64,000 nucleotides of DNA from Halobaculum rubrum (GCF_019880225.1 NZ_CP082284.1:744001-808000); one strand, 5' to 3'. Positions 4,649-25,310 are shown, counted from the first letter of the stretch. Made by a program: numbers and translations. The notes: generated from the sequence alone by a model not told the origin.

Positions 4649-5989
4649 TCATCGTACCACCTCCGCGACCGCGGCGACCAGATCGTCGGCCGCGTCGGCG
4701 TTCAGGTCGGTCACGCACACCTGCAGCGTCTCGTCGTCGAGGACGTGAACCGCGAAGCCACGCTCCTCCAGCCCGGCGGCGACGCCCGGGGCGTCGTCGA
4801 CGCCGACGGTGAACTCGCGGAAGTGGTGCCGGTCGTCGAGTGGCGCCTCGACGCCGTCGAGCGCGTCGAGGGAGGCCGCCACCGACGCCGCGTCGCGGAC
4901 GCAGTCCTCGGCGAGGGCGACGAGCCCCTCCGGGCCGAGGTAGGCCGCGTGCATCGCCGCCCGGAGCGCCACCCACGCCTGGTTCGTGCAGATGTTCGAG
5001 GTGGCGCGTTCCTTCCGGATGTGCTGCTCGCGCGTCTGCAGCGTCAGCGTGAACGCCCGGCGGTCGTCGGCGTCCTCGCTCTTTCCGACGAGGCGGCCGG
5101 GTACCTGCCGAAGGAACTCCTCCGAACAGGCGAACAGCCCGAGCCCCATCCCGTAGCTCGCGGGGAGTCCGAGGGCGCCGGCCTCGCCGACGACCACGTC
5201 GGCGCCGACCGCCGCCGGTTCCTCCAGCAGCGACAGCGCGACCGGGTCCGATCCGACGCAAAACAGCGCGTCGTGCTCGTCCGCGAGGTCGCCGATCGCC
5301 GCCAGTTCGGGCTCGATAGCGCCCGTCACGGTCGGCGTCTCGGCGTACACGAACGCGGTGTCCTCGTCGACCGCGCTCGCGAGCGCGTCGAGGTCCGCGG
5401 TGTTGTCGGCGTAGGGGTACGTCTCGACGGTCAGATCCGAGCCGTCGACGTAGTTGTCGAGGGTGCCGCGCTTGCCGTCGCGCAGGTCCTCTGGAACGAG
5501 CACGGTCGATCCGGTCGTCGAGCGGACGCGATCGGCCAACAGCGCCGCCTCCGCGAGCGCGGCCGCGGCGTCGTACATCGAGCAGTTCGCGACCGGCAGC
5601 CCCGTCAACTCGACGAGGATCGACTGGTACTCGAACAGCGCCTGCAGGAACCCTTGCGTGATCTCCGGCTGGTACTGCGTGTAGCTGGTGAGGAACTCGG
5701 AGCGCGAGGAGAGGTCGTCGACGACCGCCGGGACGTAATGCGAGTAGTGGCCCCGACCGAGGAACTCGGTGAGGTCGTCGTTGCGTTCGAACGTCTCCCG
5801 AAGGTCCGCTCTGACGGTGCGCTCGTCGCGCTGGGGAATGCCGAACTCCCCGTCGAAGGCGACCGTCTCGGGGATGTCGAACAGCTCGGCCTCGTCGTCG
5901 ACGCCGAGCGCGTCGAGCATCGCCGCCGTCTCGTCGGCGGTGTGGGGCGCGAACGGCGACCCGCCCGTTCCCGCGGACCGTCCGCTCAT
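4649..5989 (-). CDS. gcvPA: Glycine dehydrogenase (decarboxylating) subunit 1, P-protein alpha
   Basis: 446 residues, starting [20 protein letters not shown]; the homologous domain begins directly after this ([17 protein letters not shown]). It is the N-terminal half of the glycine decarboxylase and pairs with GcvPB to form the alpha2beta2 P-protein. Typical blocks are visible: [57 protein letters not shown]. Strong acidity and lack of insertions suggest a normal enzyme. A TATA-like ATATCTATGG on the minus strand near 6050-6058 lies about 65 nt upstream, so gcvPA-gcvPB may have their own promoter separate from gcvT-gcvH. Confidence 0.95.
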
Positions 5990-6156
5990 CGGGTGACCAC
6001 CCCGACACGTCCGTGTGGGTTGACCGCCGCCGCGTATCCGCGTCTGTCCATAGATATGCCTACGGCGCGCCCACCAAGAGTCGTTCGCTCCCGGGCGGTG
6101 CGGCCGGCTGTCGGGGCGAGCGTGAGACGTATCCGTCGGCGGCGCCGAGCGACGGC

Positions 6157-6354
6157 GTGACCGATCCGGTCGACCCGCCCAAGACCGACCCACTCGACGT
6201 CGACGACGAGGCGACGGTGTCGCCGCGACCGTACGCGGATCTCGTCGCGGGCGTGATGGAGGCGCGCGGCTGCGCGAAGCCCGCCGCCGAGGACTGGGTG
6301 GACGAACAGGGGCGGGAGGCGGCCGAGCGGTTCCTGCTCGCCCGGTGGACCTGA
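6157..6354 (+). CDS. Small acidic hypothetical protein
   Basis: 65 residues from GTG 6157, reading [15 protein letters not shown] at the start and ending [16 protein letters not shown]. The N-terminal third is Pro/Asp-rich and probably disordered; the rest (from [24 protein letters not shown]) is predicted to form two amphipathic helices. The coding frame has the strong third-position GC of neighbouring genes. It is the only plus-strand gene inside the gcv region, lying between the divergent gcvPA and the convergent lipoprotein gene. No function is recognised. A longer in-frame extension to 6013 is Arg-rich and judged non-coding. Confidence 0.6.
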
Positions 6355-6369
6355 CGAGGACGCGAGTCC

Positions 6370-7380
6370 CTACCCCTCCGTCGTCGGCGTCTCGGTGAAC
6401 GCCGACTCGTCCACCTGCAACGACGCCCAGTACACCGTCCCGTCGTAGCGGACGACGTACTCGCCGCTGGCGCGCCGCGACTCGGGGTCGTGCTCCCACT
6501 CGAGGACGACCGGGTCGCGCTCGCGGAACCGATCCACGAGCGATCGGAGCGCCTCGCTCGGCTCCTCGTCGCTGGCGACGTGGTACCCCGAGTAGTCGTC
6601 GCCGTCGGGCGCCGGCGTCTCGGGATCGATCGCGGCATCGAGGATCTCCCGCTCCTCGCGGGGGAGCACCGCCAGCGAGAAGCCGAACCGCTCGCGGAGG
6701 TCCGCGCCGAACGCGGCCGCTGACGCGACGCGCTCGGCCGTCAACTCGTAGGTGTAGACGGTGTACGTGGACGCGCCGTCGACCTCGAAGCGGGCCGGTC
6801 CGTCCGGCCAGACGACGACCGGGTACTCGAGCTCGGGGACGAGCACCGACTCCTCGACTGCCTCGGGACGATACGAGAGACTGGTTCCGATCCCGATCGG
6901 TCGCTCGTCGTCGTAGCCGCGCTCGGCGAGCACCGCCCTGTCCACCTCCGGAAGGTCCCCGTACCGGATCCGGTCGTTCGGCCCGGGCGTCTCCTCGCCC
7001 TCGTCGACCCGGATCGGGTTGATCGTCACGGAGAACGAGCGCAGTTCGCGGGAGTCGACCGTCTCCGCGGCGAACCGGTACACGCCGTCGTTCACGACGA
7101 CCGGCCGGTCGGTCGGGAGGGGAGCATGGGTGTCCTCGGTCGTTACGGGATCCTCATCGACGACGCGGACCGCGAGGTCGTCGCTGGGCTCCGGGTCGGC
7201 CCCACCCTCGGTACCGCTGTCGCCGAAGGTGTACAGCGCCTCGCGCGCGAGGCCGGCGTCGTCCTCGGCGGTCATGCGGAGGGAGGCGGTCGGGGAGGCC
7301 GCACAGCCGGTGCAGCCGCCGGTGGCCGTCGCCGCAAGCGTCGCCGTCGTCGCGAGGAACGACCGGCGGTCGAGTGGCAT
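6370..7380 (-). CDS. Tat-exported lipoprotein of unknown function
   Basis: 336 residues. The N-terminus [23 protein letters not shown] holds a twin-arginine motif, a short hydrophobic stretch and a lipobox (TGGC), so the protein is probably exported by Tat and lipid-anchored at Cys, as is common in haloarchaea. The mature part is acidic, with no cofactor motif recognised. It contains repeated two-strand patterns such as [13 protein letters not shown] and [21 protein letters not shown] near the C-terminus. It lies between gcvH and gcvPA on the same strand, but a role in glycine cleavage is not implied. Spacing to gcvH is 128 nt, so it probably has its own promoter. Confidence 0.75.
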
Positions 7381-16403: not shown

Positions 16404-17657
16404 ATGGTCGTGCCCACCGCCGATCCGGTGGTCGAGGTGCTCGTCCCCCTGCTCCTCGCGCTGGCGCTGGGTGCGCTCGTCGGCCTCGAACGCGAGCAAA
16501 GCGAGTCCGGCGGGTCGTTCGCGGGGAGTCGGACGTTTCCGCTGTTCGCGCTGTACGGCGCGCTGGTTCAGGCGTTCTTTCCGAGCGCGCTCCCGCTCGC
16601 GGTCGGGGTGATCGTCGTCCCCCTCACCGTCGCGTACGTCGGGAAGGTCTGGTACGAGCGCGACATCGGCCTGACGACGCTCGTGGCCGCCCTCCTCACG
16701 GTCCTGCTCGGCGCGATGACGACCCACTCCGACCGCGGTGCGGTCGTCGCCATCGTCGTCGCCGGCGCGGTCACCGTGCTGCTGTCGGTGAAAGACCCCG
16801 TCCACGAGTTCGCCGACCGGATCGATCCCCACGAGCGGCGGGCGTCGGCGAAGTTCGTCCTCGTCGTCCTCGTCGTCCTCCCGGCGTTGCCCGACCGTTC
16901 GGTCGACGCGCTCTACGGGCTCAACCCCCGGTTCGTCTGGCTGATGGTCGTCTTCGTCACCGGCCTCGGGTTCGTCGCGTACCTGCTGGGACGCGTCCTC
17001 GGGACCGAACGCGGCATCGCCGTCACCGGGGTCGTCGGCGGGTTCGTCTCCTCGACCGCGACGACGGTGTCGATGGCGGAGAAGACGGTCCAGAACGCGA
17101 CTCTGTATCACGTCTGCGCGTTCGCGGTCGTCACCGCCTCGATCGTGATGTTCCCGCGGGCGCTCATCGAGGTCGCGGTCGTCAACCCCGCGTTGCTCCC
17201 GAGCGTCGCGCCGCCGCTCGGCGCGATGACCGCGGTGGGCGTGGTCGCCGCCGGGGTGCTCTACTGGCGGACCGCCGCCGAGGAGACGGTCGAACCGGAG
17301 GAGCTCAAGAACCCGTTTCGCCTCCGACCGGCGCTCCTGTTCGGGGCCGTGTTCGCGGTCGTGTTGCTCGTCGCCGAGTCCGCCAACGAGTGGTTCGGCT
17401 CCGCCGGCGTGTACGCGACGGCGTTCTTCTCCGGACTGGCGGACGTCGACGCGATGACGATCACCCTGAGTCGGCTCGCGGCGGACGGAACGGTCCCGCC
17501 CGAGGTCGCCACGACGGGGATCGTCATCGCGGCCGTCGCGAACACCCTCGTCAAGGTCGCACTGGCGTGGCTCATCGGCACCCGTGAGCTGGGGAAACTC
17601 GTGACCGTCGTGCTCGGCGTCGTCGTCGTGAGCGGACTCGTCCTCCTCGGGGTCTGA
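16404..17657 (+). CDS. MgtC/SapB plus DUF4010 membrane protein
   Basis: 417 residues with about 11-12 hydrophobic segments. The N-terminal domain has the MgtC/SapB signature LLLALALGALVGLERE (16-31) followed by GSRTFPLFALYGAL. The C-terminal half, with VTGVVGGFVSSTATTVSMAEK (about 212-232) and GLADVDAMTITLSRLA, is the DUF4010 domain. Proteins of this architecture are thought to be transporters or regulators of transport; the substrate is unknown. A CTAGTACCTAG palindrome at 16361-16371 lies about 35 nt before the start and probably overlaps the promoter. Confidence 0.85.
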   Translation: MVVPTADPVVEVLVPLLLALALGALVGLEREQSESGGSFAGSRTFPLFALYGALVQAFFPSALPLAVGVIVVPLTVAYVGKVWYERDIGLTTLVAALLTVLLGAMTTHSDRGAVVAIVVAGAVTVLLSVKDPVHEFADRIDPHERRASAKFVLVVLVVLPALPDRSVDALYGLNPRFVWLMVVFVTGLGFVAYLLGRVLGTERGIAVTGVVGGFVSSTATTVSMAEKTVQNATLYHVCAFAVVTASIVMFPRALIEVAVVNPALLPSVAPPLGAMTAVGVVAAGVLYWRTAAEETVEPEELKNPFRLRPALLFGAVFAVVLLVAESANEWFGSAGVYATAFFSGLADVDAMTITLSRLAADGTVPPEVATTGIVIAAVANTLVKVALAWLIGTRELGKLVTVVLGVVVVSGLVLLGV

Positions 17658-21146: not shown

Positions 21147-21155
21147 TGTTTTAAG
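21147..21155 (+). promoter_or_regulatory. TATA box of the GT2-GH26 unit
   Basis: TGTTTTAAG lies about 28 nt before the GTG at 21179 and suggests a leaderless transcript for the polysaccharide gene pair. Another AT-rich stretch (GTGTAAAACCC) lies about 75 nt further upstream. Confidence 0.55.
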
Positions 21156-21178: not shown

Positions 21179-22639
21179 GTGAGTTCCAGATCGGTTCGGG
21201 ATACCGATCTCGTAGTGTCAACCGGACGAACCCAGTCCCCTTCGAGATCGATCGAGAGTGTTCCGCTCGTGAGCGCGGGCGTCGTGTCACCGGAGACAGT
21301 TCGAGTCGTCGGGGACGGGTGGGAGTTCGTCGTGTCGTCGCCCGAGGTGTTCGTGGCGTTCGTCCTCTGGCAGCTGTTGCTGTTGTACACCGTTCCGGTA
21401 GCGTTCTGGGACTACGAGGTGCTCGTGTACGCGGTCCATTTGTGGCGCCGCGAACGGAGCAGCGACCCCACCGTGTCGTGGGATCTCGACGCCGTCCAGG
21501 TGCGTGTCCTGACGATCGACAACGAGCGTGTCGTTCAGCGGACGGTCGACTCGCTGCCAGACGGGATCGTCGACGTGGTCGTCGTCGCGGAGGCGCCGAT
21601 CGCCGTCGACGGCGCGGAGGTGCTCGTCGTCCCGGAGGAGTTCAGCTGTACGGCGACCCACAAGGGGCGGGCCGTCGAGTGGGCCCGACGCTATCACCCT
21701 ACCGACCGTGAGTACGTGCTGTATCTCGACGAGGACACGGACGCGTCGGCGCTGACGTGTATCCCGTCGAACGCCGACGTGGTCCAGTTCCGCGAACGTC
21801 CGTCCAGAAGCGACGGCCTCCTCCCGTTCCTCGCGGAGATCCACCGGATCGGCTTCAACGTCGAACAGCGGGCGTTCCCGTTCTTCGACGTCCCGTTTTA
21901 CGCGTGGGGCGGCGGTATCGCGATCCGCCGGAGCCTGGAGGAGCAGGTCACGTGGGACACCCAGACGATCGTCGAGGACTCCGTGTTCCTCTGGCGGGCG
22001 GTCCTGGAGTTCGGGGCGACGCTCGAGATCGCCGACGTGTACCTGCGCAACCAGGCACCCCCGTCCGTGTGGGCGATGATCTCACAGCGCCGTCAGTGGC
22101 TTACCGGCACGCGGTCGCGGTCGAACCTGCTTCCGCGGGACTACCGGTCGCTGTATCACCTCCGCGATCTCGGGTGGGCGCTGTCGACGTTCGGGCCGCT
22201 CCTGTGGGTCGCATCGCTCGCGAGCTACCTCGGGTACACGGATCTCTCGCTGCTTCCGGTGTTCTTCCCGGAGGCGTACACCGCGCTGTCGCTGCTCCTG
22301 CTGGGACACGTGTACGCGTGGTCGGTGATCGGGCTGGTCGCCTACCGGCCGCATCCGGCGGTGTGGGTGTTCCTGCTCGTGTTCACGCCGTTCGTCGTCA
22401 CCCTCCACTCCGCAGGCGCGCTGTACGGGATGGTGCGGCCCGCGAAGTCGTTCGCGGTCACACGGAAGGTCGTCGACGTCGCCCCTGCCGCCATCGAGGA
22501 CGCACTGATGGACGCACTCGACCTCGACGAGAACCAGCCGAACGCCGAACCCCCCGTCGAGAGCGACGGCGGCGAACACGTACTTCACGAGGCGTCGGCG
22601 GACGGGGATCGCCTGTCCCGGACGAAGAGGTCACGATGA
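21179..22639 (+). CDS. Membrane glycosyltransferase, family 2 (processive, BcsA/egghead-like)
   Basis: 486 residues. Two N-terminal hydrophobic segments (about 57-90) precede a cytosolic GT-A domain. Seen are DEDTD at 184-188 (metal/UDP-sugar site), VEDS at 265-268 (catalytic base block) and QRRQW at 303-307, the Q-x-x-R-W motif of processive synthases such as cellulose and hyaluronan synthase. About four TM segments follow (315-430). This predicts synthesis and coupled export of a beta-linked polysaccharide; the sugar is unknown. The gene overlaps the next (GH26) by ATGA, so the pair is translationally coupled. GTG start is chosen from the TATA box at 21147. Confidence 0.85.
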   Translation: MSSRSVRDTDLVVSTGRTQSPSRSIESVPLVSAGVVSPETVRVVGDGWEFVVSSPEVFVAFVLWQLLLLYTVPVAFWDYEVLVYAVHLWRRERSSDPTVSWDLDAVQVRVLTIDNERVVQRTVDSLPDGIVDVVVVAEAPIAVDGAEVLVVPEEFSCTATHKGRAVEWARRYHPTDREYVLYLDEDTDASALTCIPSNADVVQFRERPSRSDGLLPFLAEIHRIGFNVEQRAFPFFDVPFYAWGGGIAIRRSLEEQVTWDTQTIVEDSVFLWRAVLEFGATLEIADVYLRNQAPPSVWAMISQRRQWLTGTRSRSNLLPRDYRSLYHLRDLGWALSTFGPLLWVASLASYLGYTDLSLLPVFFPEAYTALSLLLLGHVYAWSVIGLVAYRPHPAVWVFLLVFTPFVVTLHSAGALYGMVRPAKSFAVTRKVVDVAPAAIEDALMDALDLDENQPNAEPPVESDGGEHVLHEASADGDRLSRTKRSR

Positions 22640-23679
22640 CGACACGGCGAGGACGACAGGGTGCCCGAAACGCTCGAGCCGGCGCCTCGAGCCGCCCGGC
22701 GATCGACGGGTCGGACGGTCGTCTCGGCGGCGCGTTTCTCGGAACGGCACCCGAGTCGCTCGAACGGGCCGCCGCCGCGGAGGCGTGGCTCTCGACCCGA
22801 CTGGACGTCCAGACCGTCTTCGAACCGTGGGCGACGGCGCCGGCGGCGATCGACGATCTGTTCGACAGGCTGGGGACGCTGTGGGACGCCGGGCGGACGC
22901 CGCTGCTCACGTGGGAACCGTACACGCGAACGCCCGCCGAGACGCCGGACGACCTCCTCGACCGTCTCGTCCGCGGCGGGTACGACGAGTACCTCTCGCG
23001 ATGGGGTCGCTCGCTCGCGGCGTGGCTCGCGGGTCCCGACGGCGAGCACGACACCGACGACGATCGTGGCCTCCTGCTCCGGCCGATGCACGAACCCAAC
23101 GGCGACTGGTATCCGTGGGCTCCGGCGGCGGCCGGCGTGCCGGCGACGACGTACGTTCGGGCGTGGCGACGGATCCACCGGATCGTGACCGACGAGCTCC
23201 CCGCCGGCGCCGCCGTCTCGTGGGTGTGGGCGGTCAACCACGTCGACGTGGGCGACGTTCGCGCCGAGGCGCTGTTTCCCGGCGACGACGTCGTCGATTG
23301 GGCCGGTGTCGACGGGTTCAACTGGGGAACGAGTCAGCCGTGGAGCGAGTGGCACAGTCCGGAGGAGGTCTTCGGGCCGATGCTCGTCCGCATCGCCGCC
23401 TGTACGACACGCCCGCTGTGTGTGCCCGAGTTCGGCTGCGGTTCCGAGCGCATGGACGGGTCGGACCCGGACGCGAAAAGCGCGTGGCTCGCGGCGGCGT
23501 TCGAACTGTTCGGGGACCGCGACGTTCGCCTCGCGAGCTACTTCGGGACCGACAAGGAGACCGACTGGGCCGTGTTCGGCGGCGAACACGGCGCGAACAC
23601 GTTCCGCATCGGCGGGACGCCGTACCGGACGTACCCGGGGTTCAGACGCGGCTACCTCGCGTTCGTCGACCGCGACTGA
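22636..23679 (+). CDS. Glycoside hydrolase family 26-like protein
   Basis: 347 residues. After a 30-residue Arg/Ser/Gly-rich N-terminus come GH26-type blocks: AGRTPLLTWEPYTR, LLRPMHEPNGDWYPW with the acid/base E153, SWVWAVNHVDVGDV, and CVPEFGCGSERMDG with the nucleophile E265. Family 26 enzymes cleave beta-mannans or mixed beta-1,3/1,4-glucans. No hydrophobic signal peptide is visible, so secretion is not obvious; a basic N-terminus lacking a Tat hydrophobic stretch argues for a cytosolic or membrane-associated role. Translational coupling to the synthase recalls cellulose operons, where a hydrolase trims the nascent chain. Confidence 0.82.
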   Translation: MTTRRGRQGARNARAGASSRPAIDGSDGRLGGAFLGTAPESLERAAAAEAWLSTRLDVQTVFEPWATAPAAIDDLFDRLGTLWDAGRTPLLTWEPYTRTPAETPDDLLDRLVRGGYDEYLSRWGRSLAAWLAGPDGEHDTDDDRGLLLRPMHEPNGDWYPWAPAAAGVPATTYVRAWRRIHRIVTDELPAGAAVSWVWAVNHVDVGDVRAEALFPGDDVVDWAGVDGFNWGTSQPWSEWHSPEEVFGPMLVRIAACTTRPLCVPEFGCGSERMDGSDPDAKSAWLAAAFELFGDRDVRLASYFGTDKETDWAVFGGEHGANTFRIGGTPYRTYPGFRRGYLAFVDRD

Positions 23680-24398: not shown

Positions 24399-24536
24399 CG
24401 TCTCGGTTCACAGGCGGCACCGCAAAGACGCTCGCCGTAGAGTGCGCGTGTCGCGCACAGCCGTTCCCTGCAGGCCGGGCCCAGTCGTCCGACGCCTAGC
24501 GTGCGGTTCATATTCGACGAGCGCCTTCGCCCGATA

Positions 24537-25310
24537 ATGGACGGACCCGACCCGGCGCTGTTGCGCGAGGACATGCTCGACTCTGTCGAGCACAGCCTCG
24601 GGCGGTCGATCGCGCCGGCGGTTCGCGAGGCGATGGCGACGGTTCCCCGCGAGGAGTTCGTCGCCGAAGCGCCGTACGCGAACCGTGCGGGCGAACAGGG
24701 GGGAGCGCGCGTGCTCTCGCCGGCGACGGTCGCGCGGCTGCTGTCGACGCTCGAGCCGGCCGCGGGCGAGGAGACCCTCGTCGTCGGCGCCGGCGTCGGC
24801 TACACCGCGGCGGTGCTCGCGGAGGTCGCGGGAGCGCGCCACGTGCACGCCGTCGACATCTCGCGGCGGCTGGTGTACGACGCGCGCCAGAACCTCTCGG
24901 CGGCCGGCTACGACGCCGTGCTCGTCGACCGCGCGGACGGCGCGCGCGGGCTGCCGGCGTACGCGCCCTTCGACCGGATCGTCGTGGAGGCGGCCGCCGT
25001 CGAGCCGCCGCCCGACCTCGTCGACCAGCTCGCGCCCGACGGTCGCCTGGTGCTCCCGCGCGGCCGCGGCGCCGACCAGTCGGTCGTCGCCTACGAGTCC
25101 GACGACTCCGGGAGCGTTCGCGAGGCCGAGACGGCCGGACCGGTGTCGCTGTCGCCGCTGCTCGTCGAGGGCGAGCAGGCCGGCGCCGGCGTCCGGAACC
25201 GTACCCGCCGGGAGGACGCCGAGTTCTCCGAGCAGGGGTACTTCGCGAAGACCGGCTGGGAACACGAGTGGATCGACTGGGACGACCGGCTCGCCGGAAC
25301 CGACCGCTGA
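24537..25310 (+). CDS. pcm: Protein-L-isoaspartate O-methyltransferase
   Basis: 257 residues. It repairs isoaspartyl residues in aged proteins using SAM. Family blocks are visible: REAMATVPREEFV, GEQGGARVLSPATVARLL, TLVVGAGVGYTAAVLAEV (SAM motif I) and HVHAVDISRRLV. The usual QGQTISQP substrate loop is replaced by EQGGARVLSP, as in the haloarchaeal 'pcm-like' group, so substrate preference may differ. A C-terminal extension (about 200-257) is specific to this group. ATG 24537 is preferred over GTG 24501 because a TATA-like TTCATATTCG lies 25-30 nt upstream of it. Confidence 0.85.
   Translation: MDGPDPALLREDMLDSVEHSLGRSIAPAVREAMATVPREEFVAEAPYANRAGEQGGARVLSPATVARLLSTLEPAAGEETLVVGAGVGYTAAVLAEVAGARHVHAVDISRRLVYDARQNLSAAGYDAVLVDRADGARGLPAYAPFDRIVVEAAAVEPPPDLVDQLAPDGRLVLPRGRGADQSVVAYESDDSGSVREAETAGPVSLSPLLVEGEQAGAGVRNRTRREDAEFSEQGYFAKTGWEHEWIDWDDRLAGTDR

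Follow-up and report, generated by a model that had tools for sequence, protein, structure and literature searches.

A leaderless Lic26A-type GH26 hydrolase gene overlapping a membrane GT2 synthase gene in Halobaculum rubrum: a possible two-gene beta-glucan cassette

That a cell should maintain an enzyme to cut the very polymer it builds is a long-standing puzzle, one raised again by a gene pair in a 64,000-nucleotide stretch of Halobaculum rubrum DNA (NZ_CP082284.1:744001-808000, hereafter the window). An earlier note, made from the sequence alone, had described a membrane polysaccharide synthase of glycosyltransferase family 2 (GT2) overlapping by ATGA with a GH26-like hydrolase, and the two open reading frames confirm both the claimed coordinates and the overlap (Table 1). 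What the synthase makes, what the hydrolase cuts, and on which side of the membrane the cut is made are the questions considered here. Elsewhere in this part of the window lie genes for an MgtC/DUF4010 membrane protein (16404-17657) and a PCMT-family methyltransferase (24501-25310), with no evident link to the pair.

Both domain matches lie above the curated Pfam cut-offs (20.2 bits for PF02156). Against the nearest relative, G087, dN/dS is about 0.28 for each gene (0.170/0.597 for GT2 and 0.174/0.604 for GH26), which, together with the recurrence of the pair in many genomes, places the observation beyond chance. The synthase may begin at an alternative GTG at 21269, since in G087 the orthologous protein begins about 30 residues further in, with no start codon upstream of that point. 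The spacing of a possible TATA box would fit a leaderless transcript beginning at the GTG at 21179.

Table 1. Features of the gene pair, in window coordinates
Feature	Position	Strand	Basis and remarks
TTTTAA, possible archaeal TATA box	21149..21154	+	Sequence alone; about 27 nt upstream of GTG 21179
GT2 membrane synthase	21179..22639	+	GTG start, 486 aa; PF13632, 29.8 bits; family profile matches BcsA, E 7e-4
Single N-terminal hydrophobic segment, residues 58-76	21350..21406	+	Hydropathy; at least one such segment in 20/21 family members
DEDTD, DxD metal/nucleotide motif, residues 184-188	21728..21742	+	D184, E185, and D186 invariant in 21 members
VEDS, TED-like catalytic base motif, residues 265-268	21971..21982	+	E266 and D267 invariant in 21 members
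QRRQW, deviant Q(Q/R)xRW motif	22085..22099	+	Gln306 instead of the Arg kept by the other 20 aligned members
Three C-terminal hydrophobic segments, residues 331-349, 369-387, and 394-412	22169..22414	+	Hydropathy; three in 21/21 members
ATGA start/stop overlap of GT2 and GH26	22636..22639	+	Read from sequence
GH26, Lic26A-type endo-beta-glucanase (predicted)	22636..23679	+	ATG start, 347 aa, without leader; PF02156, 28.5 bits
Basic N-terminal tail of GH26, residues 1-28, no hydrophobic core	22636..22719	+	Residues 1-19 pLDDT <50, disordered in model
W93-E94-P95, Glu at the position of the mannanase -1 subsite His	22912..22920	+	Alignment with CtLic26A (E) and three haloarchaeal mannanase-type GH26s (H)
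Catalytic acid/base Glu153 (HE motif)	23092..23094	+	Invariant in aligned relatives
Catalytic nucleophile Glu265	23428..23430	+	Invariant in aligned relatives

The claim had been staked on the pair recurring in relatives, and it proved to be a conserved, co-inherited unit in other haloarchaea. A search with the window GH26 found relatives in 37 of 391 Halobacteria genomes, and 43 of the 48 lichenase-type copies in Halobacteria have a membrane GT2 gene within 3 kb. Twenty-six of these adjoin the synthase family of the window, which has one N-terminal and three C-terminal hydrophobic segments (the 1+3 family), and 17 adjoin a BcsA/HAS-like family. Adjacency by chance would be roughly 1-2%, a rough estimate from about seven such GT2 matches in the 3.06-Mb genome to which the window belongs.

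Neighborhoods of 15 kb were compared. Synthase and GH26 lie in tandem in the window, G087, G001, G004, G131, G344, and G342, are convergent in G274, and are divergent in G253 and G159, while eight Halococcus genomes carry a synthase, a tandem GH26 with a leader, and then a leaderless GH26 on the other strand. The genes overlap by 4 or 8 bp in G087, G004, G131, and Salinirubellus salinus, and a short gap separates them in G001; public annotation of the S. salinus pair (L234) is alike, with GT2 at 4929-6089 and GH26 at 6082-7056. In 12 pairs, the distances between synthases rise with those between hydrolases (r = 0.77, Mantel p = 1e-4), a figure that still includes shared host ancestry. As the order and strand of the pair vary, the link would be functional rather than purely inherited, and a functional link between synthase and hydrolase is well supported. 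Most 1+3-family synthases have no GH26 neighbor (a search with the window GT2 matched 162 of the 391 genomes, distant matches included, vs. the 37 with GH26), and the genes that do surround them (scpA-like, ferritin-like, nucleoside hydrolase, histidine kinase, and transposase genes) include no consistent partner.

The surroundings of the pair differ between genomes. On the 249-kb S. salinus plasmid (NZ_CP104004), the pair follows a GT4 gene and precedes, by about 1.4 kb, a gene for a CBASS oligonucleotide cyclase. A UDP-glucose dehydrogenase gene (L088:8193-9482), with epimerase-like and GT4-like genes in the same neighborhood, gives the pair an exopolysaccharide setting. In a second arrangement (L046-L051 and L090-L102), a GH26 with a Tat leader accompanies a multi-span BcsA/HAS-like GT2; a small GT or a DUF2334 protein is encoded close by in some of these genomes.

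The DxD and ED carboxylates of a processive GT2 synthase are in place (D184/D186 and E266/D267), within the DEDTD and VEDS motifs that the earlier note had singled out. Glu138, also invariant in the family, lies near the first-Asp region of the GT-A nucleotide site, where its pairing with BcsA-like GT2s is ambiguous in the profile alignment. A phmmer search of the PDB with the window synthase by itself gave no match; only the profile of 21 relatives found the Rhodobacter cellulose synthase BcsA, and weakly (Table 1). The family is further tied to the BcsA/HAS-like haloarchaeal family (hhalign, probability 96). Segment counts come from hydropathy, an AlphaFold model built with five sequences (pLDDT 39.6) having been set aside: in nearly all members of the synthase family, three C-terminal hydrophobic segments follow a single N-terminal one (occasionally a pair), compared with four to six N-terminal and two to three C-terminal in the BcsA/HAS-like family. 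No PilZ domain was matched in the window synthase or in any of the 21 members.

This layout, one N-terminal and three C-terminal segments in about 420 aa, is like that of NodC. NodC has about 400 aa, the same segment arrangement, and DxD, ED, and QxxRW motifs (PMC4132801), but the partner of the window synthase is a hydrolase rather than a deacetylase, and no specific sequence match to NodC was found. NodC is without an export channel, and its short oligomers are passed to cytosolic enzymes (PMC4132801).

The hydrolase is a Lic26A-type GH26, closest by sequence and structure to CtLic26A and with a Glu in its TWEP motif, so that the former label “GH26-like” was right and can be sharpened. Among solved structures, phmmer found Clostridium thermocellum endoglucanase H (Lic26A) at E = 3e-27 over residues 28-319, and mannanases over a short stretch only (E about 1e-4). 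The AlphaFold model (pLDDT 90, built with 31 sequences) aligns with Lic26A (2bvd) at a VIA-align Z of 33.2 over 270 residues (1.8 Å, 31% identity), with mannanases at about 21-25, and with AlXyn26A at 23. The (beta/alpha)8 barrel is evident from the first 30 VIA-align rows, each of which is a GH26 chain or comes from an entry with GH26 (Z 33-22), in a comparison that covers the families on Foldseek's own list, from which the rows were drawn. Both catalytic Glu residues are kept, as had been claimed, E153 and E265 being unchanged in alignments of 16 and 31 relatives.

Of the two substrates that the earlier note had suggested trying, beta-mannan and mixed beta-glucan, the evidence does not support the first as a likely one. 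A His at the -1 subsite is conserved in GH26 mannanases (His-136 of BoMan26B; PMC6556568), and we rejected a beta-mannanase reading, as Glu94 stands in that column and the fold scores favor Lic26A over the mannanases (Z 33 vs. about 24). In the tree, the mannanase-type proteins branch off as a clade of their own (100%), and Lic26A is placed with the lichenase-type rows. Beta-1,3-1,4-glucan is thus a likelier target than mannan because of the Lic26A grouping and the Glu at the mannanase His position, and hydrolysis of mixed-linkage beta-glucan is our best guess from sequence and model. The claim would have suffered had the protein grouped with inactive relatives; it groups with an active lichenase instead and the claim is not refuted.

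The basic N-terminus without a visible signal peptide, described earlier, was borne out: the tail is disordered in the model, basic tails are also found in G087 and G001, and no earlier in-frame GH26 start supplies a signal peptide upstream (the top 13-residue mean hydropathy, 1.14, comes from a stretch inside the GT2 gene translated in another frame). Leader state differs with the partner synthase. All 17 haloarchaeal GH26s beside a BcsA/HAS-like multi-span synthase have Tat-type leaders, often with a lipobox, and those beside the 1+3 family comprise 11 with Tat leaders and 15 without any. All 15 leaderless haloarchaeal copies therefore adjoin a 1+3 synthase (Fisher p = 6e-5, ignoring relatedness).

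Over the whole GH26 tree, leader state changed at least five times, three of them within haloarchaea, and with about three changes there a test by phylogenetically independent contrasts of leader and partner cannot reach significance. One leaderless haloarchaeal group holds the window, G087, G001, G274, and the second copies of Halococcus, and another, elsewhere on the tree, holds G004, G131, and G344; both adjoin the 1+3 family. A bacterial leaderless clade (L135, L146, L152, and L165) overlaps or abuts BcsA-like GT2s with more membrane segments, so a missing leader is not tied to the 1+3 layout in every lineage; the literature searched gave no account of a bacterial pair of this kind. The earlier note had called action inside the cell or at the membrane, suggested by the missing leader, unusual. 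The leader is indeed absent, but this is no peculiarity of the window: leaderlessness arose on two or more occasions in haloarchaea and on one in the bacterial clade, in every case next to a synthase. In Halococcus (L077-L084), leadered and leaderless GH26s stand side by side after one synthase, and GH26-containing open frames of over 1000 aa are also present.

From the features computed for the pair (overlap, co-inheritance, a Lic26A-like fold with its catalytic residues, absence of a leader, and a NodC-like segment count), we infer a beta-glucan product, action of both enzymes on the same molecule, and a hydrolase that stays in the cytosol. At the membrane, GT2 would draw on a cytosolic sugar nucleotide to form a glucan or gluco-oligosaccharide with beta linkages, and the co-translated leaderless GH26 would cut this product on the cytoplasmic side, fixing its length, or removing stalled chains, ahead of export or other use. 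The product would have to be short or slowly exported, and so reachable from the cytosol, for GH26 to set or reset its length. As a whole, such a two-gene glycan cassette, with a cytosolic endo-beta-1,3-1,4-glucanase cutting what its own synthase makes, is a tentative reading to which we give a little less than an even chance. The earlier note had suggested that the hydrolase may act inside the cell or at the membrane; the repeated origin of leaderlessness next to synthases strengthens the former, and judged from the protein sequences a cytosolic site of action is likely.

Several other readings have to be weighed against this cassette. The hydrolase might leave the cell by an unrecognized route and trim or release exported exopolysaccharide, as is thought for BcsZ and CcsZ. 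The sequence is compatible with leaderless release, close relatives beside the same synthase family carry Tat or Tat-lipoprotein leaders (Halococcus, L088/L089, and L103), and CcsZ has an N-terminal signal/anchor (PMC7710045); nevertheless, all 15 leaderless haloarchaeal copies lack any leader, even when alternative upstream starts in the window are considered, and the retention by Halococcus of leadered and leaderless copies side by side suggests two compartments, so that we regard extracellular editing as distinctly unlikely. The same architecture could also serve another polymer, such as a mixed-linkage or beta-1,3/1,4 xylan, glucomannan, or another beta-glycan, given that GH26 also includes mannanases and mixed-linkage xylanases, that AlXyn26A aligns with the model, and that the sugar donor of the synthase is not readable from sequence. 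Since the lichenase is well ahead of every other match in both structure and sequence, and shares the -1 subsite Glu with the window enzyme, this is improbable. Least probable by our estimate, and very much so, is a catabolic role in which GH26 degrades imported or recycled glucan oligosaccharides beside an incidental synthase: it would fit the cytosolic location suggested by the missing leader, but hydrolases of this type as a rule lie next to synthases, and scavenging is made less likely by the lack of any GH1 or GH3 beta-glucosidase match in the organism's own genome.

A different doubt concerns this strain rather than the family. The earlier note took QRRQW as an intact motif, but every one of the 20 other aligned members has QxxRW and the window synthase does not; the codon at position 306 is CAG here and CGG in G087, one base apart. 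The equivalent Arg-to-Ala mutants of NodC and yeast chitin synthase 2 (ScCHS2) are inactive (PMC4132801), and with the Arg kept by 20 of 20 relatives, the synthase of this strain may be impaired, weak or even dead, owing to R306Q. The cassette could then be decaying in this genome, with the hydrolase as a leftover, a course of events seen in related species: in G052, of the same genus, a 173-aa in-frame fusion (L052:6961-7482) joins the synthase N-terminus (to about residue 137-145) to the GH26 C-terminus (from about 305) and is a deletion relic of a pair with the same gene order, and two GT2 genes beside GH26 have an in-frame TGA. Both full-length frames in the window are open, however, the two genes have the same low dN/dS against G087, the neighboring Arg305 might partly stand in for the lost Arg, and Gln306 is possibly a sequencing error; we consider decay unlikely on balance, if the most credible of these alternatives to a working cassette.

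The two interrupted GT2 genes (L088 in G253 and L089 in G159) lie beside intact Tat-leader GH26s and have a single TGA each, at a Trp position, at sites that differ between the two species. In-frame stops also occur in many other synthase-family matches listed by the class search.

The likeness to bacterial cellulose and alginate operons drawn by the earlier note holds for the theme of a synthase plus a hydrolase but not for the parts. BcsA/BcsZ and clostridial CcsA/CcsZ operons likewise unite a membrane GT2 synthase with an endo-hydrolase; the window hydrolase, however, is a GH26 rather than a GH8 or GH5 enzyme and is without an export signal, and so is not a cognate hydrolase of the exported GH8 (BcsZ) type. 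The synthase diverges from BcsA, whose eight membrane helices form a channel, with fewer predicted membrane segments, no PilZ match, and no other subunit genes adjacent. BcsZ and CcsZ act outside (PMC7710045), and action of Agrobacterium CelC on lipid-linked intermediates has been proposed but not established (PMC3520766). CtLic26A (endoglucanase H, PDB 2bvd/2cip) shares with the window enzyme its fold, the catalytic Glu pair, the TWEP -1 subsite, and a KETDW C-terminal motif, but belongs to a secreted enzyme that degrades plant polysaccharides, whereas the window GH26 is leaderless and sits beside a synthase.

Other systems resemble one half of the pair or its setting. The mixed-linkage glucan synthases RiGT2 of Romboutsia ilealis and BgsA of Sinorhizobium are GT2 enzymes whose product is a lichenase substrate (PMC10374906), but the RiGT2 paper names no GH26 partner. 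In Actinoplanes missouriensis, the GH26 gene for WpsE lies within the exopolysaccharide biosynthesis cluster wps-1 (PMC13390465), which is of the Wzx/Wzy type and not a two-gene synthase pair; its authors were aware of no characterized Wzx/Wzy cluster with a GH26 (PMC13390465). We found no description of a GT2-GH26 pair in haloarchaea or bacteria in a literature search covering few subscription journals, in agreement with the earlier impression that a two-gene system of this kind in haloarchaea is little described. No account of the choice of GH26, of the missing leader, or of an archaeal two-gene form seems to exist in the literature searched; the families and the theme of synthase plus hydrolase are known.

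The locus provides a hint to the substrate of a haloarchaeal synthase family that is annotated just as “glycosyltransferase family 2” and is found in about one third, or more, of the searched genomes, and a lead to a possible beta-1,3-1,4-glucan in archaea, of which no earlier description was found. One GH26 family stands beside synthases both with a leader (outside) and without (apparently inside), in Halococcus within one locus, so that where and why the cut is made can be tested by comparing pairs. A broader proposal is that a polysaccharide or oligosaccharide synthase is paired, in haloarchaea and independently in some bacteria, with a cytosolic endoglucanase that gauges or keeps check on the chain ahead of its export, the leader having been lost repeatedly beside synthases; this we hold to be somewhat unlikely. 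If true, a cytosolic check of the chain before export would be an unrecognized step in synthase-dependent glycan systems, whose described partner hydrolases act outside the membrane. To a specialist, the repeated loss of the leader next to synthases would come as a surprise. The bacterial hosts of leaderless GH26s (L135, L146, L152, and L165) are Desulfobacterales, a deltaproteobacterial MAG, Desulfuromonadaceae, and Thermodesulfovibrionia.
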